Shown here: positions 725 to 55,157 of the stretch, piece by piece
Layout of the letters: every line of letters starts with the position of its first letter
How positions within the stretch are numbered: the first letter of the stretch is position 1
NCBI GenBank assembly: GCA_019752015.1
Contig: JAIEMQ010000043.1
Location: forward strand, 1 to 61,526
Direction of reading: 5' to 3'
Source: Cyanobacteriota bacterium
GTDB taxonomy: Bacteria; Acidobacteriota; Vicinamibacteria; Vicinamibacterales; UBA2999
Length of the DNA: 61,526 nt
Position numbers and translations under genes: made by a program
The notes under the pieces: generated by a model
Databases searched by the model: none
Told to the model about the DNA's origin: nothing
The model's input: the letters and a program-made list of their open reading frames with translations, nothing else

Positions 725-951
725 CGGCAATCGAGCATTCGCGCACGGGCCAGCGCTGAATTGAATCGGCGTTCCCGCCGTCTCAAGAAGCTGCTGAATC
801 GGAGGCGCCAAGCAGCGAACTGCTCACAGAACGCACCCTGCCCGCGCTGTCAAGCGGATCAGAAGTTCTTGCGAGGCAAGAAATCTCCCAAGAACATCGG
901 TCGTGGCCGTGCGGTCCGCCTCGTCGATCTCTTCTGCGGCTGCGGTGGGAT
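725..951 (+). pseudogene. Possible DNA (cytosine-5) methyltransferase N-terminal fragment
   Basis: One frame reads LKKLLNRRRQAANCSQNAPCPRCQ, then GRGRAVRLVDLFCGCGG, before losing all similarity. VRLVDLFCGCGG matches motif I (SAM-binding FxGxGG) of C5-cytosine methyltransferases, and a CPRC pair precedes it. No start codon of usual kind is present and the frame joins directly to an unrelated hydrolase reading frame near 950. I read it as a 5' gene splinter. The motif is short, so chance similarity is possible. Confidence 0.35.
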
Positions 952-1140
952 CTGCACGGCGGTGCGTGGAACAACAACGACCGCACGGCGGAAGCGCCGA
1001 TGGATCGCGCGCTGGCGGAGAGTGCATTGCTGGCGGTCGCGATCGACATGACGAACGCGCCGGAAGCGCCGTATCCAGCGTCCGTGCAGGAGGCGAACTA
1101 CGGCGTGCGCTGGCTCAAGTGGAAGGCGCCGTCGTGGAAC
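946..1140 (+). pseudogene. Alpha/beta-hydrolase internal fragment
   Basis: About 63 residues in one frame begin WDLHGGAWNNNDR and continue through LLAVAIDMTNAPEAPYPAS to GVRWLKWKAPSWNG. HGGAW is the oxyanion-hole motif of esterase-like alpha/beta hydrolases, and the APEAPYPA stretch is typical of the same region in that family. The nucleophile elbow and the catalytic Asp and His are absent. Both ends are abrupt: a methyltransferase-like frame before and an ADOP permease frame after, each in a different reading frame. It is a relic with no expected function. Confidence 0.65.
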
Positions 1141-1507
1141 GGCGGCGGCTCCGCGGCCTGTTGGTCGTTGCCAAGGTCGCGATCTCGCTGATGTTGCTGA
1201 TCGGCGCGGGGCTGCTGATCCGCAACTTCGTTCGGCTTCAGCAGGTGTCGGGATTCGACGAGACCAGCGTGGTCTCGATGCGCGTCAGCGGCACGTCACG
1301 CCAGTTGCGCAATCGCGATGAAGTGATCGCGTACTATCGGCCACTGCACGACGCGCCCGCGTCCGTGCCCGGCGTCCAGTCGCGTCGGTTCGTGTCCGCG
1401 CTGCCGTGATGCCGATGACGCTGGCCATGACGGCTGCCGCGGCCATCCTTATACCCGCAATGCGCGCGACTCGCGTCGATCCGGCCGTCGCATTGAGAGA
1501 GGCGTAG
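1129..1507 (+). pseudogene. ADOP-family FtsX/MacB-like permease fragment
   Basis: Frame one reads RRRLRGLLVVAKVAISLMLL, IGAGLLIRNFVRLQQVSGF and then VIAYYRPLHDAPASVPGVQS, the central membrane segment and start of the periplasmic domain of acidobacterial ADOP permeases, and stops at 1407-1409. A second frame at 1409-1507 reads AAAILIPAMRATRVDPAVALREA and stops, matching the extreme C-terminus of the same family. Several hundred residues between the two parts are missing. This is an internally deleted, frameshifted remnant of a roughly 800-residue permease. Confidence 0.75.
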
Positions 1508-1602
1508 CCGCACAACTCCCGGTGATGGCGCAATAAGGGACTTCGCTTGCTCTGAACGACACAGTTCGGCTCACTCTGCCCATGCGCGTCCGCGCCAGAT
1601 GT

Positions 1603-1608
1603 TATGAT
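1603..1608 (+). promoter_or_regulatory. Possible -10 element for the PilZ gene
   Basis: TATGAT lies 27 nt upstream of the PilZ gene start. No convincing -35 is visible at standard spacing. Support is by position and sequence only. Confidence 0.3.
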
Positions 1609-1634
1609 CTGCCGCGATACATAGCGCGACCCCC

Positions 1635-2294
1635 ATGGTCACTTCTTTCGTTATAGTCAGGCCCGAGCATCTGGAGTCGATCAGGAAACGCCTCGCTGAT
1701 GTCGAGGGCGTCAACGTGATCTCGGAATCGGATCTCCTGCCGATCCAGGACACGCTCCTGTCGCGTCCGCCGGAAATTCTCGTCATGCACTCGGCGTTTG
1801 CGACCACGTCACGCGGCGCGACGCTGGTGTCGGGTCTCAAGGCCAGGCCGAATGAAACCGGGACGGCCATCCGCGTCTTCATCGAAGACGACGTCAAGCC
1901 GCTGATCCTCAGCGAGACCGCGCTCGATCCGCACGATGCGATGCTGGAAACCTCGCGGCCGCTCGATCGCGCCGGCACGCGTCAGGCGGCACGCTACCCG
2001 ATGAACCGGCGCGACGTTGCCGTCAACGGCGAAGCGGGGCAATTGATCGATCTATCGGTGTCCGGCGCGCAGGTGCAGTCCGCCATGCGGCTGCGTCCGC
2101 TCAAACTGGCGCGGCTGGTGTTGCCGGACGCCACCGGTGATCTGCGGCTGCAAGGCACGGTCGCCTGGGCGATCGCCGTGCCGAGCGGCGGCGCAATTCA
2201 GTATCGCGCCGGCGTGGAGTTCGTGAATCCCGACAAGCGCATGCTGACCGCATTCTGCGAGCGTCACGGGATCGCGCCCGATCCGACCCGCTAG
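1635..2294 (+). CDS. PilZ-domain protein with receiver-like N-terminus
   Basis: 219 residues. The C-terminal half carries the two marks of a cyclic-di-GMP-binding PilZ domain: an arginine-containing segment TRQAARYPM (R116, R120) and D139-L-S-V-S-G144, the D/NxSxxG motif. The N-terminal 110 residues (MVTSFVIVRPEHLESIRKRL onward) alternate strand and helix like a degenerate response-regulator fold but lack a clear phospho-acceptor. Such proteins usually sense c-di-GMP to tune motility, exopolysaccharide or envelope functions. The downstream PBP gene starts 34 nt later, so co-transcription is likely. The effector partner is unknown. Confidence 0.75.
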   Translation: MVTSFVIVRPEHLESIRKRLADVEGVNVISESDLLPIQDTLLSRPPEILVMHSAFATTSRGATLVSGLKARPNETGTAIRVFIEDDVKPLILSETALDPHDAMLETSRPLDRAGTRQAARYPMNRRDVAVNGEAGQLIDLSVSGAQVQSAMRLRPLKLARLVLPDATGDLRLQGTVAWAIAVPSGGAIQYRAGVEFVNPDKRMLTAFCERHGIAPDPTR

Positions 2295-2328
2295 TAGTAA
2301 ATCGCACTTCACAAGTCCCGCAACCGAT

Positions 2329-4371
2329 ATGGGACGATGGATCGGGATGCGCGCGATGTGGCGAACCGATCTGGGCCGGGCGAAAGTCCTGCTGTACGCC
2401 TTCATCGTCGCCGCCACGATCGCGTTCGCGTGGTTCGCCAGGCAGAGTTACGCGGTGTCGCGCCTCACGCGCGGTGTGGGCGACACGTGGTTCCAGACCG
2501 CCGACGGCCGGCGGTGGTTCCGACTGGATGAGCAGCGGCACGACGTGCCGATTACCGCGATCGCTCCGGATCTCCAGCACGCCTTCGTCGCCGTCGAAGA
2601 TCATCGTTTCTTCCTCCACCCCGGCGTCGATCCGATCGCGCTCGGGCGCGCGGCCTTTCGCAACATGCGTTCCGGATCGCTGCAGGGCGGCAGCACGCTG
2701 ACGCAGCAGCTCGCCCGCACGCTGTTCCTGTCGAACCGCAGGAGCTACGGCCGCAAGGCGCGCGAAGCCGTGATCGCGTATCTGATCGAAGTCCAGCTGA
2801 CCAAGCAGCAGATTCTCGAGCTGTACTTGAATCGCATCTTTCTCGGCGCCGGTATCTACGGCGTCGAGGCCATGTCGCAGCGGGTGTTCGGCAAGCCCGC
2901 GAAATCACTGACGCTTGCCGAGAGCGCGCTGATCGCCGGACTGGCGCGGGCGCCGGCGGCGCTGTCGCCGTGGTCGAATCTCGATGAGGCGCGGGCGCGC
3001 AGCCACGTCGTCCTCATGCGCATGCGTGAGGAAGGATTCATCACCGAGGAGCAGTATCGCGACGCGAAGCAGGCACCGTTGCGCATTCGTCCGTATCGAA
3101 GCGACAGCGATTCGCGTCGAAGCGACAGCGATTCGCGTCATGGCTACGCGAAGGCGTACCTCCGGCAACGCTTCCGCGATGAGTTCGGCGGCGATCATCC
3201 ACCAGACTGGCGCGTGCAGACGACATTCGTCGCCGAGCTGCAGGATGCGGCTGAAGCCGCGGTGACCAGAGGGCTCAAGCGCACCGGGAAGCCGGCGCTG
3301 CAAGCGGCGCTCGTGGCCATCGACCCGGCAAACGGGAACATCCTGGCCGTGGTCGGCGGCCGCGACTATCAGCAGTCTGCTTTCAACCGCGCCAGTCGCA
3401 GCCGGCGTCAACCGGGATCGGCATTCAAGCCGTTCGTGTTTGCCGCGGCGCTCGAGCGCGGCCTGTCGCCTGTGTCGACTCTGACCGGGCTCAATGAAAT
3501 CGAGCCGCAGGGCCCCGACGAGTGGACACCGCGTAACGTGCATGACGATGCGCCTGATGAGCTGACGCTGCGGGCGGCATTGATCGAATCCAACAATCGC
3601 GCTGCAACCGTGTTGCAACAGCAAATTGGTAGTGGCCGCGTGCTGGACGTCGCCGACAAGTCAGGACTCGACGATCTCCCGGACGTGCCGTCGCTGGCAC
3701 TCGGTTCGGGCCTGGTCACGCCGCTGGCCATCACCAGCGCGTTCGCCGTCTTTCCGAATGGCGGTGTCGCGGTGCGGCCGCGCGACCTCCTTCGCGTGCG
3801 CGATGCCGACGGCGGCACCGCGTTCCAGCAGAAGGTGGAGACCGACCGCGTGATCTCTCCGGAGGTCGCGTATCAGATGGTGTCGATGTTGAGCGATGCG
3901 ATCGATCGCGGCACCGGATCGCCGGCGAGGCAACTCGGCATTCGCTTTCCGATTGCGGGCAAGACCGGCACCACCAACGAGTTCAAGGACGCGTGGTTCG
4001 TCGGCTTCTCATCCTCGATCGTCGTCGGCGTGTGGGTCGGCTTCGATCAGCCGCGGCCGATTGGCTCGGAAGGCTATGGCGCCCGCTATGCGCTGCCGAT
4101 CTGGGCGGACTTCATGCAGCGTGCCGCGAAGGTTCGCGTGCCGACGGAATTCGAGCGCCCGGCGGGATTGCAGGAAGAATCGCTTTGCGCGATCAGTTAT
4201 CGCAAGCCGGTTGACGGCTGTCCGCTTTACACCGAGTACTTCAAGGAAGGCGACGACGTTCCCGATCGTCTGTGCACGATCCACGTCGGCTCGATTCGCC
4301 AGCGGCTGACGCGCACGTTCCAGGGATGGATGGCCGAAGCTGGGCGCCGCGTTCGCGGCATCTTCCGCTAG
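2329..4371 (+). CDS. Class A penicillin-binding protein (PBP1 type)
   Basis: 680 residues, bifunctional peptidoglycan synthase. A short cytoplasmic tail and one TM helix (about 19-37) precede a GT51 glycosyltransferase domain with catalytic E90 in EDHRFF, GGSTLTQQLAR (120-130), RKAREAVIAYLIE (142-154) and LELYLNRIFLGAGIYG. The transpeptidase domain shows SAFK (serine near 364), SNN near 421 and KTGTT near 545. It polymerises lipid II and cross-links stem peptides in the periplasm. A 21-bp direct duplication (3097-3138) gives RSDSDSR twice in the inter-domain linker. The 3' end overlaps the convergent HAD gene by 4 nt. E. coli PBP1a/1b are longer, so no specific symbol is assigned. Confidence 0.93.
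   Translation: MGRWIGMRAMWRTDLGRAKVLLYAFIVAATIAFAWFARQSYAVSRLTRGVGDTWFQTADGRRWFRLDEQRHDVPITAIAPDLQHAFVAVEDHRFFLHPGVDPIALGRAAFRNMRSGSLQGGSTLTQQLARTLFLSNRRSYGRKAREAVIAYLIEVQLTKQQILELYLNRIFLGAGIYGVEAMSQRVFGKPAKSLTLAESALIAGLARAPAALSPWSNLDEARARSHVVLMRMREEGFITEEQYRDAKQAPLRIRPYRSDSDSRRSDSDSRHGYAKAYLRQRFRDEFGGDHPPDWRVQTTFVAELQDAAEAAVTRGLKRTGKPALQAALVAIDPANGNILAVVGGRDYQQSAFNRASRSRRQPGSAFKPFVFAAALERGLSPVSTLTGLNEIEPQGPDEWTPRNVHDDAPDELTLRAALIESNNRAATVLQQQIGSGRVLDVADKSGLDDLPDVPSLALGSGLVTPLAITSAFAVFPNGGVAVRPRDLLRVRDADGGTAFQQKVETDRVISPEVAYQMVSMLSDAIDRGTGSPARQLGIRFPIAGKTGTTNEFKDAWFVGFSSSIVVGVWVGFDQPRPIGSEGYGARYALPIWADFMQRAAKVRVPTEFERPAGLQEESLCAISYRKPVDGCPLYTEYFKEGDDVPDRLCTIHVGSIRQRLTRTFQGWMAEAGRRVRGIFR
3097..3138. 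repeat. Two 21-bp direct repeats inside the PBP gene
   Basis: The 21-nt unit beginning CGAAGCGACAGCGATTCGCG occurs twice in tandem and keeps the frame, adding seven residues (RSDSDSR) per copy to the linker between the two catalytic domains. The unit contains GCGA and TCGC arms and could form a small hairpin. Confidence 0.8.
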
Positions 4372-5030
4372 GCCAACGGCGATTCGCCGAGCCGCGCCAG
4401 CAGATCGTGCGGGCCATCGTAGATGGCAATGGCGTCCGCCAATTCCCGATCGGTCCACCCGCCACTTCGAAACGCGATCGTTTCGAGGCCGGCTCGCCGC
4501 GCCGCTTCAATGTCGTAGGGCGTGTCGCCGATCATGATCGCGTCCGGGGGCGACGCCTTCGCCAGCTTCAGCGCCGCCTCGATAATGTCGGGATCCGGTT
4601 TCGAATCCTCCGCGTCGTCGCTGGATGTCTTGTCGTCCATCAGATCTTCGGCCCTGGCGATCTTCAGCAGCGCCTTCAAGTCTTCCTTCGACGCGGAACT
4701 CGCGGCCACCGCGGTATAACCGCGCTCCTTGAGCGCCGTGACCAGGCCGCGCGCGCCCTTGAACGGCTTCAGGCGCGGCAGAAACTCTTCCTTGAAGATC
4801 TCACCGCGGCGCTTCGAGATTTTTTCGCCGAGTGCCGAGTTCTCGTCGATGCCGCTGACTTCAGGCATGAGCTTGTCGCCGCCCATGCCGATGCATCGCC
4901 GGACCAACGTGGGATTTACCTTGACGCTGAATTCCTGGAACGCCTTGACCCAGGCGCGGGCGTGCGCATCGTTGCTGTCGACCAGTGTGCCGTCGACGTC
5001 GAAGAGAACGGCCTTGAGCTTCCGCTGCAT
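4368..5030 (-). CDS. HAD-superfamily phosphatase (phosphoglycolate phosphatase-like)
   Basis: 220 residues. HAD motif I is DVDGT with D11 nucleophile and D13 general acid; motif II is the S111 region; K144 lies in DSKPDPD; motif IV is GDTPYD with D169. A helical cap sits between motifs I and II, as in the beta-phosphoglucomutase/phosphoglycolate phosphatase branch. It probably hydrolyses a small phosphorylated metabolite in the cytoplasm. The substrate cannot be assigned because this subfamily is promiscuous. It is convergent with the PBP gene and followed upstream by a 34-bp triple repeat. Confidence 0.85.
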   Translation of the reverse strand: MQRKLKAVLFDVDGTLVDSNDAHARAWVKAFQEFSVKVNPTLVRRCIGMGGDKLMPEVSGIDENSALGEKISKRRGEIFKEEFLPRLKPFKGARGLVTALKERGYTAVAASSASKEDLKALLKIARAEDLMDDKTSSDDAEDSKPDPDIIEAALKLAKASPPDAIMIGDTPYDIEAARRAGLETIAFRSGGWTDRELADAIAIYDGPHDLLARLGESPLA

Positions 5031-5060
5031 ACGCGCAGTGCGTATGCAACTAACCCGCCA

Positions 5061-5181
5061 GACGCGACCGTTAACGGGTGCCAGGCACCCGATGCTGGTA
5101 GACGCGACCGTTAACGGGTGCCAGGCACCCGATGCCGGTTACTGGTAGACGCGACCGTTAACGGGTGCCAGGCACCCGATG
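5061..5181. repeat. Three copies of a 34-bp palindrome-bearing repeat
   Basis: Copies at 5061-5094, 5101-5134 and 5148-5181 are identical: GACGCGACCGTTAACGGGTG followed by CCAGGCACCCGATG. Each contains GGGTGCC-A-GGCACCC, a 7-bp palindrome around one base. The gaps are 6 and 13 nt (GCTGGTA-like), too short for CRISPR spacers. The array fills the gap between the acyl-CoA dehydrogenase stop and the HAD gene start, both on the minus strand, and could act as a terminator or mRNA-stabilising REP-like element. Confidence 0.9.
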
Positions 5182-5185
5182 TCGG

Positions 5186-6376
5186 TTAGTTCGCGAAGGC
5201 CGGGATGCCCGTTTGCGCGCGTCCGAGGATCAGCGCGTGGACATCGTGCGTTCCTTCGTAGGTATTTACTACTTCTAGATTTACCAGGTGCCGAATCACG
5301 CCGAACTCGTCGACAATGCCGTTGCCGCCGAGCATGTCGCGGGCATCGCGCGCAATTGCGAGCGCCTTGCCGCAGGAGTTGCGCTTCAGCATCGAGGTGA
5401 TTTCCGGCGCGGCGCTGCCTTCGTCCTTCATGCGCCCGAGCCGCAAACACGCATTGAGACCGAGCGCGATCTCGGTCTGCATGTCGGCGAGTTTCTTCTG
5501 GATCAACTGATTGGCGGCAAGCGGCCGCCCAAACTGCTTCCGCTCCATCACATAGTTGCGCGCGCGGTGCCAGCAGTCCTCGGCCGCGCCCATCGCGCCC
5601 CAGCAAATGCCGTAACGAGCGGAATTGAGACACGTGAACGGCCCCTTCAGACCCTTGATGGTGGGGAAGGCGTTCTCTTCGGGACAAAACACGTTGTCCA
5701 TGACGACTTCGCCGGTGAGGCTCGTGCGCAAACCGACCTTGCCGTGAATCGGCGGCGCGCTCAGACCCTTCATCCCTTTCTCGAGGATGAAGCCGCGAAT
5801 CACATCCGCATCGTCTTTCGCCCAGATGATGAAGACGTCGGCGATCGGGCTGTTGCTGATCCATGACTTGCTGCCGGTCAGCGAATAGCCGCCGTCGACT
5901 TTCTTTGCGCGCGTCGTCAGGCCGCCGGGATCGGATCCGTGGCCGGGCTCCGTCAACCCGAAGCAGCCGATGTACTCGCCGGTGGCGAGCTTTGGCAGGA
6001 ATTTCTGTTTCTGTGCCTCGGTGCCGAACTCGTTGATCGGGACCATCACCAGCGAGCCCTGCACGCTCATCATCGAGCGGAAGCCGGAGTCGACGCGCTC
6101 GATTTCGCGCGCGACCAGTCCGTAGCTCACGTAATTGAAACCGGCGCCGCCGTATTGCTCGGGGATGACGATGCCGAGCAGATCGAGCGCGCCCATCTCG
6201 CGGAAGATCGACGCATCGGTCTTCTCGTGCCGGAACATTTCCAGCACGCGCGGCGTGAGACGATCCTGCGCATACGAGCGTGCCGTCTCGCGGACCATCT
6301 GCTCTTCGTGGGTGAGTTGCTGTTCCAGGAGGAGCGGGTCGCTCCAGTTGAAACGCGTTTCGGTCTTGGTTGACAT
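5186..6376 (-). CDS. gcdH: Glutaryl-CoA dehydrogenase-like acyl-CoA dehydrogenase
   Basis: 396 residues from the preferred ATG at 6376, which has GGAG six bases upstream; an in-frame ATG at 6400 would overlap the upstream gene. The family hallmarks of glutaryl-CoA dehydrogenase are present: [35 protein letters not shown] (FAD contacts), [42 protein letters not shown] and the catalytic glutamate near 374 in [10 protein letters not shown]. It oxidises and decarboxylates glutaryl-CoA to crotonyl-CoA in lysine/tryptophan and aromatic degradation, passing electrons to ETF. The gene starts 1 nt after the membrane-spermidine synthase fusion gene. No other pathway genes are nearby. Confidence 0.85.
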
Positions 6377-47929: not shown

Positions 47930-48070
47930 GAATAATAACAAAGAACGAAAAACGAAGAACGAAAAACGAAGAACGAAAAACGAAGAACGAAAAACGAAGA
48001 ACGAAAGCCGAAGAACGAAAGCCGAAGAACGAAAGCGCGTTTGTTCTTTGTTATTCGTTCTTTGTTATTT
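47930..48070. repeat. Inverted heptamer arrays between gatC and rnz
   Basis: Tandem GAACGAA/AAACGAA heptamers (about 47940-48030) face TTCTTTG/TTATTCG units (48040-48069). The rnz stop codon and its last five codons (ITKNE) lie in the right arm. Same family as at 21924-22012. Confidence 0.9.
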
Positions 48071-48970: not shown

Positions 48971-50146
48971 ATGAGCTTCTCTATGACCACCGCCCGTTTT
49001 TCCCCACGAACGCCTCTTTCATTCGCTTTTTATTCGCTCATCGCGTTGGCGGTGATGAGCGTGGCTTGTCGCGGCAGCCAGACCCAGGGGCAGGGTGGGG
49101 GACCGCCGGGGGGAGGCCCACCGCCAATGCCGGTGGAAATCGTCACGCTCGCAGCGGAATCCGTCGAGCAGACCACGGAATATGTCGCGTCGCTCAAGTC
49201 GCGCCGCTCGGCGACCATCAATCCGGAAGTCGAGGGCACGCTGACCGAGGTCGCGGTGCGATCCGGCCAGGACGTCGCGCGCGGTGCGCTGCTGTTCGAG
49301 ATCGATTCCGGGCCGCAGACCGCCGCGCTGGCCTCGCTGCAGTCGATGCGTCCGGCGCGTGAGTCGGACATCGAGTTCGCGCGCCAGCAGGTGCAGCGCA
49401 ATCAGACGCTGATGAAGGCCGGCGCGATCAGCCAGCGCGAGGTCGAGCAGTACGAGGCGCAGCTGCGTGCCGCGGAGGCGCAGCTGAAGGCGCTCGACGA
49501 ACAGATCAAACAGAGCCGCAGCCAGCTCAATTACTACCGCGTCACCGCACCGATCGCCGGCACGGTCGGCGACGTCCCGGTCAACGTCGGCGATCGCGTC
49601 ACGCGCTCGACCGAGCTGACGACGATCAACGAGAACGACGTGCTCGAGGTCTACATCAACGTGCCGGTGCAGCAGGCGCCGAATCTGAAAGAAGGATTGC
49701 CGGTGCGTCTGATTGACGATCGCGGCGAGGTGCTGGCCACGAACCGCATCACGTTCGTCTCGCCGACGGTGGACACTTCCACGCAGTCGGTGCTCGCGAA
49801 GGCGCAGCTGATTGAAGGCCGCGGTCAGTTCCGCGCCGACCAGTTCGTGCGCGCGCGCGTAGTCTGGACGACGGCGCCGGGTCTGACGATCCCAGTGACA
49901 GCGGTGGTCCGCATCAACGCGCAGTTCTTCGCGTTCGTGGCGGAGAAAACCGGCGCATCGGGAATGGTCGCCAAGCAGAAGCCCGTGCAGCTTGGCGAGA
50001 TCATCGGCAACGACTACGTGGTGAAAAGCGGGCTCGCCGTCGGCGAGCAGCTGATTGTATCGGGGCTGCAGAAAATTCGTGACGGCGCGCCGGTGATGCC
50101 CGCACCGCCCGCCGGTGCGGCACCCCCGGCACCCAAGGCACCTTAG
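48971..50146 (+). CDS. RND efflux periplasmic adaptor (lipoprotein)
   Basis: 391 residues. A lipobox (LAVMSVAC, C33) follows the signal helix. The order is beta-barrel/lipoyl/hairpin as in AcrA: VEIVTLAAESVEQTTEYVAS, INPEVEGTLTEVAVRSGQDV, a coiled-coil hairpin (residues about 105-190), YRVTAPIAGTVGDVPVNVGD, and VPVTAVVRINAQFFAFV. It links the inner-membrane pump with the outer-membrane channel. The Pro/Ala-rich end PPAPKAP runs into an AGGCACCC array. The pump gene starts 66 nt later. Confidence 0.92.
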   Translation: MSFSMTTARFSPRTPLSFAFYSLIALAVMSVACRGSQTQGQGGGPPGGGPPPMPVEIVTLAAESVEQTTEYVASLKSRRSATINPEVEGTLTEVAVRSGQDVARGALLFEIDSGPQTAALASLQSMRPARESDIEFARQQVQRNQTLMKAGAISQREVEQYEAQLRAAEAQLKALDEQIKQSRSQLNYYRVTAPIAGTVGDVPVNVGDRVTRSTELTTINENDVLEVYINVPVQQAPNLKEGLPVRLIDDRGEVLATNRITFVSPTVDTSTQSVLAKAQLIEGRGQFRADQFVRARVVWTTAPGLTIPVTAVVRINAQFFAFVAEKTGASGMVAKQKPVQLGEIIGNDYVVKSGLAVGEQLIVSGLQKIRDGAPVMPAPPAGAAPPAPKAP

Positions 50147-50208
50147 GCACCTTAGGCACCCAGGCACCCAGGCACCCAGGCACCCAGGCACCCAGGCACC
50201 CAGGCACC
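50140..50208. repeat. AGGCACCC 8-mer array between adaptor and pump genes
   Basis: About eight units (first AGGCACCTT, then AGGCACCC repeated). It includes the adaptor stop TAG and ends 3 nt before the pump ATG, so it also fills the ribosome-binding region; translation of the pump may be coupled. Confidence 0.9.
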
Positions 50209-50211
50209 ATC

Positions 50212-53200
50212 ATGATTGCTGACGTCTTTATTCGTAGACCCGTCCTCTCAACGGTCTGCTCGCTGTTAATCATTCTCGCGGGCGCGGTCGCGATCCCCAC
50301 GCTGCCGATCGCGCGCTATCCGGATCTCGCGCCGCCGTCGGTGACGGTGAGCGCGTTCTATACCGGCGCCAACGCGCAGGCGGTGGAAAGCGCGGTCACG
50401 ACACCGCTCGAGCAGGCCATCAACGGCGTCGAGGGCATGACCTACATGACCTCGTCGAGCACCAACAGCGGTTTTGCGAACATCACCGTCACCTTCGACG
50501 TCGATCGCGATCAGGATCTCGCGGCCGTTGACGTGCAGAATCGCGTCAACCAGGCACTCGGCCGCATGCCGGCGGAAGTGAGGCAGAACGGCATCGCCGT
50601 CGCGAAAGTTGCGACGGGCTTCATCGGCGGCATCGGCCTGTTCTCGAGAGACAACCGCTACTCGAGTCAGTTCATCAGCAACTATATCGACCTCTACATC
50701 CGCGACGCGATCAAGCGCGTGCCGGGCGTGGGCGACGTGATCGTATTCGGCGAGCGCAAGTTCGCGATGCGGCTGTGGCTCGATCCGACCAAGCTCGCCG
50801 GTCGAAACATTACGGCCGCGGACGTGCTCAACGCGCTGCGCGAACAGAACGTCCAGGTCGCGGCCGGCGCGCTGGGCGATGCGCCGTCGCCGGTCGATCA
50901 GGAATACACGATCAGCGTGCGCGCGATGGGCCGGCTCTCTGAAGCGCCGGAGTTCGAGGACGTGGTCGTCAAGGCCGGACGCGATGGTGCGCTCGTGCGC
51001 GTCAAAGACGTCGGCCGCGTCGAGCTCGGCGCGGAAACGTATTCATCCAACCTGCGCTTCCTCGGTCTCGAGGCGCAAGGCATGGGCATCTCGCTCCTTT
51101 CCGACGCGAACGCCATCGAAACCTTCAACGGCGTCGTGGCGACGATGGATCAGCTCAAGGGGAACTTCCCGCCTGGCCTCGAATGGCAGGTTGCGTTCGA
51201 CAACGTCGTCGTCGTGCGCGAGTCGATCGTCGAAGTGCTGTGGACGCTGCTCGAAGCAATCGGCCTCGTCATCCTGGTGATGTTCCTGTTCCTGCAGAAC
51301 TGGCGGAGCACGATCATTCCCGCAATCACGATCCCGGTGTCGCTGATCGGCACGTTCGCGTTCATCAAGCTGTTCGATTTCTCGATCAACGTGCTGACGC
51401 TGTTCGGCATCGTGCTCGCGACCGGCATTGTCGTGGACGATGCGATCGTCGTCGTCGAGAACATCGAGCGGCACATGCGCGAGTTCCACAAGTCGGCGCG
51501 GCAGGCCGCGGTGGATGCGATGCGAGAAGTGTTTGGCGCGGTGGTCGTGATCGGCATCGTGCTCGTGGCGGTGTTCGTGCCGGTGGCGTTGTTCCCCGGT
51601 GTGACCGGCCGTTTGTATCAGCAGTTCTCGCTGACGATCGCGTTTTCGGTGGTGTTGTCGGTGTTCAATGCGGTGACGCTGACGCCGGCGCTGGCGGCGC
51701 TGCTGCTCGACAAGGAGAGCCACACGCACGGCCGCTTCTTCACCGCTTTCAATCGCGGCGTCGAGTCCGGCACCAACGGTTACGTCAGGCTGGTGCGAGG
51801 CGCGCTGCGGTTCCGATACGTGCTGCTGTTGCTGTTCGTCGGCGGATTGTTTGCGACCTACACGGTCTTCCGCATGGTGCCCTCGTCGTTCGTGCCGCAA
51901 GAGGACGAAGGTTACCTGATGTGCATCGTGCAGGCGCCCGCCGGTGCGTCGCTCGAGTACACGACCGACATCGCCAAGCAGGCCGAGCAGATCATCTACA
52001 AGGACCCGGACGTCGCCGCGGCGTTCTCGGTGATGGGTTTCAGCTTCTCCGGCGCGGCGCCCAACAACGGGATGATCTTCATCCGCCTGAAGGACTACGA
52101 GCAGCGCAAGGATCCGAGCCAGTCGCTGCAGGCGGTGCTCGGGCGATTGAGCGGCCCGCTGTTCATGATCCCCGGCGCGATCGTCGCGGCGTTCCCGCCG
52201 CCGTCGATTCAGGGTCTGTCCCGATTCGGCGGCTTCCAGTTCGAGGTGCTCGATCAAACCGGATCGAGCGACATCAACACGCTCGCCGGCGCGACGTTCG
52301 GGCTGATGGGCGCGGCGAACCAGAGCGGGCAGGTGCAGGGCGCGTTCAGCAGCTTCCGCGCCGACGATCCGCAGCTGATCGTCGACATCGATCGCGACAA
52401 GGCGCGCAGCCTTGGCTTGCCGCTGCGTGAAGTCACCGATGCATTGCAGGTGTTCCTCGGCTCGCAGTACGTCAACGACTTCGACTTCAACAACCGCGCG
52501 TATCGCGTCTACGTGCAGGCGGATCAACGTTTCCGCGCGAGTCCGGCGAGCTTGAAGCAGCTCTACGCGCGTGCGTCGAACGGCGACATGGTGCCGCTCG
52601 ATACGGTCGTGCGTTTGCGCGAAACGACCGCGCCGCAGGTGATCAGCCACTTCAACCTGTTCCGCTCGGCGGAAATCACCGGCAACCCGGCGCCCGGACG
52701 GAGCTCCGGCCAGACGCTCGACGCAATGGAGCAGCTCGCGCAGCAGAACCTGCCACCCGGATTCAGCTACGCGTGGGCGGGGCAGTCGCTCGAAGAGCGG
52801 CTCGCGGGCGGCCAGTCAGGTTTGATCTTCGGCCTCAGCTTGTTGCTGGTCTACCTGGTGCTGTCAGCGCAGTACGAATCGTTCATCCTGCCGCTGATCA
52901 TCCTGCTCGGCGTGCCGCTCGCGGTGTTTGGCGCGCTGTCGGCGCAGTTACTGCGCGGCTTCAACAACGATGTCTTCTGCCAGGTCGGCCTGGTCTTGCT
53001 CGTCGGCCTCGCCGCGAAGAACTCGATCCTGATCGTCGAGTTCGCCGAGCAGCTGCGCGGGCAGGGCCTGTCGATCGTCGACGCGGCGATCGAATCGGCG
53101 CGTATCCGCCTGCGGCCGATTCTGATGACGTCGTTCGCCTTCATCCTCGGCGTGATGCCGCTGGCGCTCGCCACCGGCGCGGGCGCGGCGTCGCGCAACT

Positions 53201-54675
53201 CGGTCGGCACCGCGGTGGCCGGCGGCATGATCGCCTCGACGTTCCTGTCGATCGTCTTCATCCCGGTGCTCTACGTGATCATTCGCTCGCTCGCGCCGGG
53301 CCGGGCGCATCGCGATCGCGGCGACGATTGGAGAGCGGGGGCTTCAGCCCCCGCTAACACCGCGATGGGAATCATCTTTGCGCTCGCAATTGCAGCTCCG
53401 GCGTTGGCGCAGGATTCAGCGACGGCTCAGGATTCAGTGACCGCTAAAGCCGTCGCTCTCCAAACGTCAACGCAAACGCCCGTCGTCGAAAGCGTGACGT
53501 TCGACGAGGCGATCAATCGCGCGCTCGAGAAGAACCCTACCGTCGCAATCGCGTCGACGAACATCCTGCGGTCGGAAGCGCTGCTGGCGCAGGTCCGCGC
53601 GCAGACGCTGCCGCGTGCCGGCGTCACTGCCGCCAACACCACGCTCGACCGGGGCCGCCAGTTCGGCGGGCAGACGGTGCAGCCGCAGAACCAGACCGTG
53701 CTCGGCCTCACCGCCACGCTGCCGATCGGTCCGGCGCAATGGGCGGCGCGCGCGCAGGCGATGGATCAAGTGGAGATTGCGCGTCTGTCGGTGACGGACA
53801 CGCGCCGCCAGATCGCGGTGGCGGCGGCCTCCGCGTATCTGGCGATCATCGCGCAGAAGAGACAGGTGGATGTGATCATGACCGCGCTCGAAACGGCGCG
53901 TGGTCAGCTGGACTACAACACCAAACGCCGCGAGGGCGGCGTCGGGAGCCGCTTGAACGAGCTGCGGTCATCGCAGCTGGTATCGTCCACGCAGGCGGCG
54001 CTCGAGGTGCTGCGTCTCGCGGTACGCCGCGCGCAGGAAGCGCTCGGCGTGCTGATCGCGGCGACAGGTCCTGTCGATGTCAGCGACGAGCCGGTCTTCG
54101 AAGTCCCGTCGGAAACCGCCGACACCGAATGGCTGCCGAATCGGCCCGATGTGCGCGTGCTGATCGCCCAGCGCGACGCCAACGAGCGCATCGTCAGCGA
54201 CAGCAAGCGGGACTGGTGGCCCGTGGCCTCGGTGACGTTCGGCCCGCAGCTGCTGACGCCGGCCGGGATTTTCCAGCCGTCGCGGACGTGGACGCTGTCA
54301 CTGCAGTTGTCGCAGCCGCTGTTCGAAGGCGGCCAGCGGCGCGGGTTACGCCGTCAGCGCGAATCGATCTTCGAAGCCTCGAAGCTCTCGGTGGAGCAGT
54401 TGCAGATCGAAGCGCGATCGGATGTGCGGATCGCGCGGGCCGCGATCGAAGCGCGCGAGCGCGCCTTGACCGCCGCGCGCCAGGCCGCGCAGATCGCGAA
54501 TGAAGTGTTGACGATCACGATCATCGCGTTCGACGCCGGATCGACGACCAACATCGAGGTGATCGACGCGCAGCGCTCGGCGCGCGATCTCGAGTCAGCG
54601 GTGGTGCAGGCGGAAGACGCCGTGCGCCAGGCGCGACTCGAACTGCTGGTCGCGCTCGGCCGGTTTCCGCGTTGA
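50212..54675 (+). CDS. Fusion of RND multidrug pump (AcrB type) and TolC-type outer-membrane factor
   Basis: 1487 residues. Residues 1-1040 are a complete HAE1 RND transporter: MIADVFIRRPVLSTVCSLLI, GIVLATGIVVDDAIVVVENIERH (the paired proton-relay aspartates), NAVTLTPALAALLLDK, GLVLLVGLAAKNSILIVEFAEQ. Residues about 1070-1487 are a TolC-type outer-membrane factor: VTFDEAINRALEKNPTVAI, two coiled-coil regions and VTFGPQLLTPAGIFQPSRTW. Between them are a second signal-peptide-like segment (MGIIFALAIAAPALAQ, 1052-1067) and two palindromic elements, which read through in frame. It may be cleaved after ALA, or start again at the ATG at 53365, though no Shine-Dalgarno is visible there. With the adaptor upstream it could form a tripartite efflux system. 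Confidence 0.92.
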   Translation: MIADVFIRRPVLSTVCSLLIILAGAVAIPTLPIARYPDLAPPSVTVSAFYTGANAQAVESAVTTPLEQAINGVEGMTYMTSSSTNSGFANITVTFDVDRDQDLAAVDVQNRVNQALGRMPAEVRQNGIAVAKVATGFIGGIGLFSRDNRYSSQFISNYIDLYIRDAIKRVPGVGDVIVFGERKFAMRLWLDPTKLAGRNITAADVLNALREQNVQVAAGALGDAPSPVDQEYTISVRAMGRLSEAPEFEDVVVKAGRDGALVRVKDVGRVELGAETYSSNLRFLGLEAQGMGISLLSDANAIETFNGVVATMDQLKGNFPPGLEWQVAFDNVVVVRESIVEVLWTLLEAIGLVILVMFLFLQNWRSTIIPAITIPVSLIGTFAFIKLFDFSINVLTLFGIVLATGIVVDDAIVVVENIERHMREFHKSARQAAVDAMREVFGAVVVIGIVLVAVFVPVALFPGVTGRLYQQFSLTIAFSVVLSVFNAVTLTPALAALLLDKESHTHGRFFTAFNRGVESGTNGYVRLVRGALRFRYVLLLLFVGGLFATYTVFRMVPSSFVPQEDEGYLMCIVQAPAGASLEYTTDIAKQAEQIIYKDPDVAAAFSVMGFSFSGAAPNNGMIFIRLKDYEQRKDPSQSLQAVLGRLSGPLFMIPGAIVAAFPPPSIQGLSRFGGFQFEVLDQTGSSDINTLAGATFGLMGAANQSGQVQGAFSSFRADDPQLIVDIDRDKARSLGLPLREVTDALQVFLGSQYVNDFDFNNRAYRVYVQADQRFRASPASLKQLYARASNGDMVPLDTVVRLRETTAPQVISHFNLFRSAEITGNPAPGRSSGQTLDAMEQLAQQNLPPGFSYAWAGQSLEERLAGGQSGLIFGLSLLLVYLVLSAQYESFILPLIILLGVPLAVFGALSAQLLRGFNNDVFCQVGLVLLVGLAAKNSILIVEFAEQLRGQGLSIVDAAIESARIRLRPILMTSFAFILGVMPLALATGAGAASRNSVGTAVAGGMIASTFLSIVFIPVLYVIIRSLAPGRAHRDRGDDWRAGASAPANTAMGIIFALAIAAPALAQDSATAQDSVTAKAVALQTSTQTPVVESVTFDEAINRALEKNPTVAIASTNILRSEALLAQVRAQTLPRAGVTAANTTLDRGRQFGGQTVQPQNQTVLGLTATLPIGPAQWAARAQAMDQVEIARLSVTDTRRQIAVAAASAYLAIIAQKRQVDVIMTALETARGQLDYNTKRREGGVGSRLNELRSSQLVSSTQAALEVLRLAVRRAQEALGVLIAATGPVDVSDEPVFEVPSETADTEWLPNRPDVRVLIAQRDANERIVSDSKRDWWPVASVTFGPQLLTPAGIFQPSRTWTLSLQLSQPLFEGGQRRGLRRQRESIFEASKLSVEQLQIEARSDVRIARAAIEARERALTAARQAAQIANEVLTITIIAFDAGSTTNIEVIDAQRSARDLESAVVQAEDAVRQARLELLVALGRFPR
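53329..53358. repeat. Palindromic element at pump-TolC junction, first copy
   Basis: TTGGAG then arms AGCGGGGGCT and AGCCCCCGCT (53334-53355, TC loop). It is in the orientation opposite to the other four relative to coding sense and reads DWRAGASAPANT. It lies where the acrB stop would be expected. Confidence 0.92.
53436..53464. repeat. Palindromic element at pump-TolC junction, second copy
   Basis: AGTGACCGCT and AGCCGTCGCT (two mismatches) around AA, followed by CTCCAAAC. It reads SVTAKAVALQTS, the same peptide as in pheT and ispA, just after the internal signal peptide. Confidence 0.9.
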
Positions 54676-55108: not shown

Positions 55109-55157
55109 TACCCGGCTCCCGGCTCCCGGCTCCCGGCTCCGGCTCCCGGCTCCCGGA
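55109..55157. repeat. CCCGGCT heptamer array upstream of the FKBP gene
   Basis: Six heptamers of CCCGGCT/CCGGCTC fill the region between the FKBP start and the TonB-receptor leader. The rest of the 306-bp gap (55158-55404) contains a possible TTGACA at 55238-55243 with a weak -10 TAGCCT at 55261-55266. Confidence 0.85.

Follow-up and report, generated by a model that had tools for sequence, protein, structure and literature searches.

Tripartite pumps are a main pathway by which drugs leave the cell, and the current understanding is that their subunits are produced separately. The closest described systems, AcrAB-TolC and MexAB-OprM, comprise the same three components as the locus analyzed here, namely an RND pump, a periplasmic adaptor, and an outer membrane channel. 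The C terminus of the pump AcrB is cytoplasmic, and pump and channel stand in the assembled complex at a ratio of AcrB3:TolC3. Two other kinds of protein are built along similar lines. FbcH of Bradyrhizobium, the precursor of cytochromes b and c1, is cleaved at a signal peptide inside its chain; as here, a membrane protein is followed by an internal signal peptide and then by an exported partner. RND-outer membrane factor (OMF) fusion proteins of the CusA/CzcA type exist in databases, from Bacteroidota, and have the same domain order as the protein described below. Unlike AcrAB-TolC and MexAB-OprM, the present locus encodes pump and channel as one translation product; unlike FbcH, its exported partner is an outer membrane channel and some of the fusions carry a lipobox; and unlike the Bacteroidota proteins, its pump is of the HAE1 type and occurs in Acidobacteriota. 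An earlier note on this DNA, made from the sequence alone, knew of no described system of this kind. Among the papers listed in literature searches on RND-channel fusions and on internal signal peptides in polyproteins, which reached few subscription papers, none names a natural RND-OMF fusion; databases do hold the CusA-type fusions of Bacteroidota. The passages of one review that deal with fusion terms likewise name no natural RND-OMF fusion (PMC8277102).

In the window (the whole stretch of 61,526 nucleotides analyzed here, from a soil bacterium), one open reading frame without an internal stop encodes both pump and channel (Table 1). The Pfam profile ACR_tran (PF00873) aligns with the N-terminal part from profile position 2 to 1021 of 1021 (1146.5 bits; cutoff, 28), and this part also passes the HAE1 RND permease family models NF000282 (1286 bits; cutoff, 1250) and TIGR00915 (1252 bits; cutoff, 940). 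It contains the motifs GIVVDDAI (residues 405 to 412) and AAKNSILIVEF (residues 934 to 944), which we take to be the Asp pair and the Lys of the proton relay. The C-terminal part matches OEP (PF02321) in two stretches (148.2 bits; cutoff, 22), at nucleotides 53500 to 54054 and 54133 to 54660, so that both OEP repeats are present, while it stays below the curated cutoffs for TolC (TIGR01844; 91 of 225 bits) and NodT (TIGR01845; 87.5 of 210 bits). The earlier note's description of a complete pump running without a stop into a complete outer membrane factor was thus borne out. An AlphaFold model of the last 476 residues, built from nine sequences (mean pLDDT, 68.6; pTM, 0.57), contains the elements of a TolC fold, namely two pairs of long helices and four strands, with the junction poorly predicted. 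A Foldseek search with this model returned 39 PDB matches at E ≤ 0.001, OprJ, OprM, VceC, and TolC among them; TOprJ1 and OprM were the best, with low TM-scores of ∼0.3 and rmsd of at least 18. By its OEP pair and predicted fold, the channel part belongs to the outer membrane factors of the TolC/OprM superfamily. Of the PDB sequences matching the fusion, none covers both parts (best 60 of 83). The adaptor gene lies directly 5' of the fusion gene, and the whole tripartite pump is therefore encoded by two genes. Tandem repeats were also observed around these genes: an 8-base repeat (GGCACCCA, ∼11 copies) at window positions 50119 to 50208, covering the last part of the adaptor gene and the spacer between it and the fusion gene; an intergenic 14-base repeat (AACGAAGAACGAAA, 7 copies, 96% match) at 47937 to 48034; and a further array (CCCGGCT) at 55111 to 55156.

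Table 1. Features of the fusion locus, in window coordinates.
Feature	Position	Strand	Remarks
Periplasmic adaptor (membrane fusion protein) gene	48971..50146	+	TIGR01730, 222.8 bits (cutoff, 94.9); HlyD_D23; directly upstream of fusion gene
Fusion ORF: RND pump and outer membrane factor, joined by a linker that contains the internal signal peptide	50212..54675	+	1487 aa, then TGA; orthologous fusions elsewhere
HAE1-type RND permease domain	50218..53286	+	Residues 3-1025; ACR_tran, NF000282, TIGR00915
Linker 1/cytoplasmic tail	53287..53358	+	Basic, variable; contains first palindrome; topology as expected from AcrB
Palindromic repeat copy 1 (REP-like)	~53323..53355	+	In frame, in linker 1
Internal signal-peptide-like segment TAMGIIFALAIAAPALA	53359..53409	+	Signal peptidase I predicted to cleave after 53409, between ALA and Q
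Mature outer membrane factor (TolC/OprM fold)	53410..54672	+	OEP matches; model resembles OprJ/OprM/VceC/TolC chains
Palindromic repeat copy 2	~53436..53468	-	Inverted relative to copy 1; in linker 2

The same fusion, which the earlier note had proposed to look for in relatives, was found complete in several other Vicinamibacteria metagenome-assembled genomes (MAGs), at 84, 79, and 73% protein identity. Two others of the nine genomes of the window's genus carry it in full (84 and 79%), and a third, G005, has a contig-edge copy with a fused junction (L013). In the family (43 genomes), a further complete copy occurs in G042 (73%), and the copy of G041 (L063) is cut by the contig end. Among the matches listed from named records (80 kept of at least 582), 8 of 80 loci were fused (L133 to L139 and L163), all in records labeled Acidobacteria, Acidobacteriota, or Vicinamibacteria; L133, L134, and L135 probably represent the same genomes as G001, G006, and G042. 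In six pairwise comparisons of four fusion sequences (L039, the fifth planned, was left out), dN/dS was 0.11 to 0.19 for the pump and 0.23 to 0.44 for the channel, that is, both domains are under purifying selection. For the linkers, of 10 to 24 codons each, 4 of 12 comparisons exceeded 1 and 3 of 12 were undefined. Given purifying selection on both domains and the orthologous fusions, the fusion gene is a maintained gene. That two genes were merged by an assembly or sequencing error, or in a decaying gene, might be argued from the relatives with separate genes and from the broken copy L056 (G016:C187), which is fused separately at the junction and loses its channel frame ∼220 residues on, by decay or assembly error. 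For the fusion family this explanation is already contradicted by the recurrence of the fusion in several MAGs, by a single clade of eight rows in the pump tree (support, 99), by the selection on both parts, and by the fused gene of Occallatibacter savannae AB23, which is a named strain; we consider it extremely improbable. The orthologous fusions in further Vicinamibacteria MAGs make an assembly error in particular unlikely.

In most other relatives, whose pumps are 63 to 77% identical, the channel is the next gene and separate. At all 21 separate loci with a channel match, the channel lies in a reading frame other than that of the pump, and at 17 of the 21 its ATG stands 8 nt before the end of the pump stop codon, an 8-nt overlap; L048, L049, L055, and L059 lack an ATG at this position. 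The earlier note had taken separate gene pairs with the window's repeats between them as evidence that would contradict its interpretation; no such pair was seen, the genes overlapping by 8 nt at 17 of these 21 loci. Separate channels begin with signal-peptide-like N termini of their own, as checked in 16 of the loci L040 to L064 (48, 49, 55 to 59, 61, and 63 were left out as broken, partial, fused, or without an ATG at −8; automatic selection of the cut site was unsuccessful for 2 of the 16). Since the separate genes overlap and their channels have such N termini, the internal segment is most likely the former signal peptide of a once separate channel gene. On this view the fusion joined two genes that overlapped and were probably coupled, and what had been the N-terminal signal peptide of the channel became internal. 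In L138 and L163 the old start is still visible: both retain a Met and a charged residue before the segment (HMDKTA... and HMERTA...), and their junctions read ...RSHMDKTAMFFIGISLLGATTAFA and ...RSHMERTAGFFIAIMALGAATAFA, each followed by Q.

Within the window's internal segment, MGIIFALAIAAPALA spans residues 1052 to 1066 (nucleotides 53365 to 53409), and the next residue is Q. When nine of the twelve fusions of the window's family (family 1) were aligned, A55 and Q56 were the only invariant columns between G19 and V84. These two are the −1 and +1 positions of the predicted cut, and the rest of the junction varies in length and sequence; the three fusions left out of the alignment (L013, L056, and L063) each also have A followed by Q at the junction. 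A strict motif, [AVGST]xA[QED] after a hydrophobic core, was present in 28 of 43 fused junctions, compared with 1 of 411 hydrophobic segments taken from the pump parts of these proteins. The corresponding counts were 38/43 versus 63/411 for a looser motif and 36/43 versus 41/411 for plain AxA. This test took 43 of 45 planned junctions (L056 and L119 were left out), and its rows are related, with P values that are descriptive. The strict motif was missed in 15 of the 43 junctions: 9 misses are near variants such as AFAS, AFAA, AFAG, AYGQ, and AFGQ; others are L020 (ALAQ, which fails the charge rule), L078 (a lipobox), L093 (ALA before A), and L118 (VHA before G); and L094 and L095 have poor cut sites. 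In a second fusion family, an A-[FWYL]-[AG] site was found in 20 of 20 junctions, although the pattern itself asks for such a site. A point against cleavage is the weak n-region of the window's segment, whose nearest basic residue lies 10 positions ahead of the core. Both signal peptidase families, I and II, were found in G000, G040, and G331. The comparison thus supports the earlier note's interpretation of the internal segment as a cleavable signal peptide within a polyprotein: the segment has the position and likeness of the separate channels' N termini, and its predicted cut site is conserved.

The segment might instead be left uncut as a 13th transmembrane helix, with pump and channel acting as one chain across both membranes. 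The single open frame fits this, as does an uncharged hydrophobic run as long as in the pump segments (median around the core, 18.5 in 46 junctions versus 16 in 450 pump segments). Segment length had been considered as evidence of cleavage and was dropped, since junction runs are no shorter than those of the pump; it supports neither side. Against an uncut chain stand the invariance of the A-Q pair, the outcome of the motif test, the lipoboxes found at some junctions (see below), and the short linkers. The predicted cut lies 3 to 48 residues from the first channel helix motif, and 10 or fewer in 14 of 42 scored junctions (42 of 46, with NodT-like rows left out; the window was mis-scored there, its true value being ∼28). 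By the distances that we take for a canonical pump, the shortest linkers, of 3 to 6 residues, should not be able to bridge from the inner membrane to the channel if uncut. We therefore regard an uncut chain as unlikely.

Slightly less probable still is internal reinitiation, in which ribosomes also start at an in-frame codon before the signal peptide and so make the channel separately. An ATG stands before or at the core start in 12 of 43 junctions, and an ATG, GTG, or TTG in 36 of 43; in 14 of 43, a start within 25 aa is accompanied by a Shine-Dalgarno-like match of at least 4 bases. The window itself has an ATG at 53365, but the same test found no Shine-Dalgarno match for it, and starting there would yield a signal peptide without a basic n-region. 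With no start codon at this place in 7 of 43 junctions and no ATG in 31 of 43, reinitiation as judged from these codons is not general across the fused junctions.

These comparisons lead us to favor, as the likely explanation, that the fusion gene encodes a polyprotein cut by signal peptidase I at the internal signal peptide. Translation would yield an RND pump with a cytoplasmic C terminus, and the chain would continue into the signal peptide inherited from the channel. Because the pump ends in the cytoplasm, as in AcrB, the junction segment would insert N-in, as signal peptides do, reengage Sec, and take the channel domain to the periplasm. Signal peptidase I would cut after ALA (position 1066); the pump would remain in the inner membrane, and the freed channel would trimerize in the outer membrane. 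Together with the adaptor encoded just upstream, the two would form a tripartite efflux pump. Made as one chain, pump and channel would start at 1:1. At junctions that bear a lipobox, signal peptidase II would act instead of signal peptidase I.

Palindromic elements do flank the junction, as the earlier note had observed. A 301-base junction query gave 26 matches in the genome, itself included, so that dispersed palindromic copies, here an inverted pair, are present as in REP/BIME-like elements. In L011 (G001; match strand, ∼4627 to 4751), the same inverted pair brackets the internal signal peptide. The pair shared by L011 and the window and absent from the window's sister points either to shared ancestry with loss or to a preferred insertion site. 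The earlier suggestion that the palindromes removed the stop did not hold up: no copy was found in the fused loci searched, L010 (the window's sister), L013, L135, L136 to L139, and L163, and the separate-gene relatives differ by reading frame. We accordingly reject the view that the palindromes brought about the fusion; the two variable linkers tolerate them as passengers.

RND-channel fusions extend beyond this family. Members of a second fusion family, which share 26 to 30% identity with the fusion of the window, are scattered across the taxonomic family to which the window belongs, and the window's own genome carries one of them at C4:109581-114011. That genome has 14 ORFs with an OEP match (27 matches), of which the two open frames longer than 1400 aa are the two fusions. 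At least 22 of the 43 family genomes contain a complete RND-channel ORF, a lower bound owing to the limit of E ≤ 1e-125 (hand count, with L081 of G011 added). Further fused lineages are L079/L080; L091 to L095 with L113; L116 to L118; L078; L242; L243; and L248, and both domains were confirmed by Pfam in 5 of 5 representatives tried (L026, L078, L079, L092, and L116). On a quick tree of 92 pumps (without L119, L084, and L018), 12 changes of the fused label are required, of which starred branches force at least 9; the software gave a warning about long branches joining each other, rows were scored as "split" according to the end of the pump ORF, and label changes cannot tell gain from loss. Family 1 is fused in three places on this tree: the clade of eight, the pair L138 and L163, and L056. 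These data suggest that RND-channel fusions arose repeatedly in Acidobacteriota, the tree changes standing for gain or loss alike.

Searches with other fusions scored two candidates per genome and one pump subfamily and are no census. For L078-like fusions, 26 of 247 Acidobacteriota genomes gave 29 matches at E ≤ 1e-240, none of which extended into the channel part, and the pump tail ended 11 to 44 aa after TM12 in 29 of 29 loci (a stricter criterion located TM12 in 6). An L242-like search of Acidobacteriota matched 7 of 297 genomes at E ≤ 1e-290; L243 and L248 were fused, and L244 to L247 and L249 had a stop after the pump. The search of the phylum to which a Microbulbifer genome belongs gave matches at E ≤ 1e-300 in 44 of 299 genomes; the single full-length match has a stop, and the pump tail ended 13 to 44 aa after TM12 in the 20 loci fetched of 55 matches. 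For the phylum of a genome labeled Myxococcota, matches at E ≤ 1e-285 came from 3 of 282 genomes and did not extend into the channel part. Among six genomes reached via named loci, the one open frame longer than 1000 aa with PF02321 was the Occallatibacter fusion. In plasmid records, only H7 and H14 cover more than 70% of the query among the 90 matches listed, with separate genes annotated in both; 36 records cover at least 80%, most of them outside the matches listed.

Two junctions carry a lipobox, L078 (G040; ...SVVVLAAALLAGCAVRRPYEAP...) and L242 of Occallatibacter savannae AB23 (...LTILLLTMFLQGCSVGPKYKAP...), and the predicted cut there would fall before the lipobox Cys. Lipobox-like N termini are also found on the channels of the separate relatives L213, L215, L244, L246, and L249. 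The fused L243 (G185:C158) and L248 (G320:C29) have no lipobox Cys and instead show small-x-A sites, the junction segment ending in GAAA or AKA, as if lipidation had been given up after fusion. Occallatibacter savannae AB23, in which the RND-OprM-type fusion spans positions 1524 to 6119 and the adaptor gene ends 8 nt upstream, is a tractable test organism. A different arrangement was observed in L119 (G185:C117; ORF 784 to 4959, minus strand), a pump-adaptor fusion (ACR_tran and HlyD) whose junction, MKQTVLPLLLIAGLTVTGAAC, contains a possible internal lipobox, TGAAC. We think it fairly probable, on the comparisons assembled here, that Acidobacteriota repeatedly make polyproteins of efflux operons, with the outer membrane or adaptor part released when housekeeping signal peptidases cut at an internal site that suits the enzyme: signal peptidase I for TolC-like channels, and signal peptidase II with lipid attachment for some OprM-like ones.

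For annotation, "RND permeases" of 1450 to 1600 aa may be two proteins. If the polyprotein explanation is true, pump and channel can be produced together and then parted by general signal peptidases, with a 1:1 coupling of the two at translation. The fusions would then offer a natural system in which to study the stoichiometry of the subunits and the order of their assembly in tripartite pumps, and an unusual bacterial case of internal signal peptides, lipoboxes included, inside membrane polyproteins.
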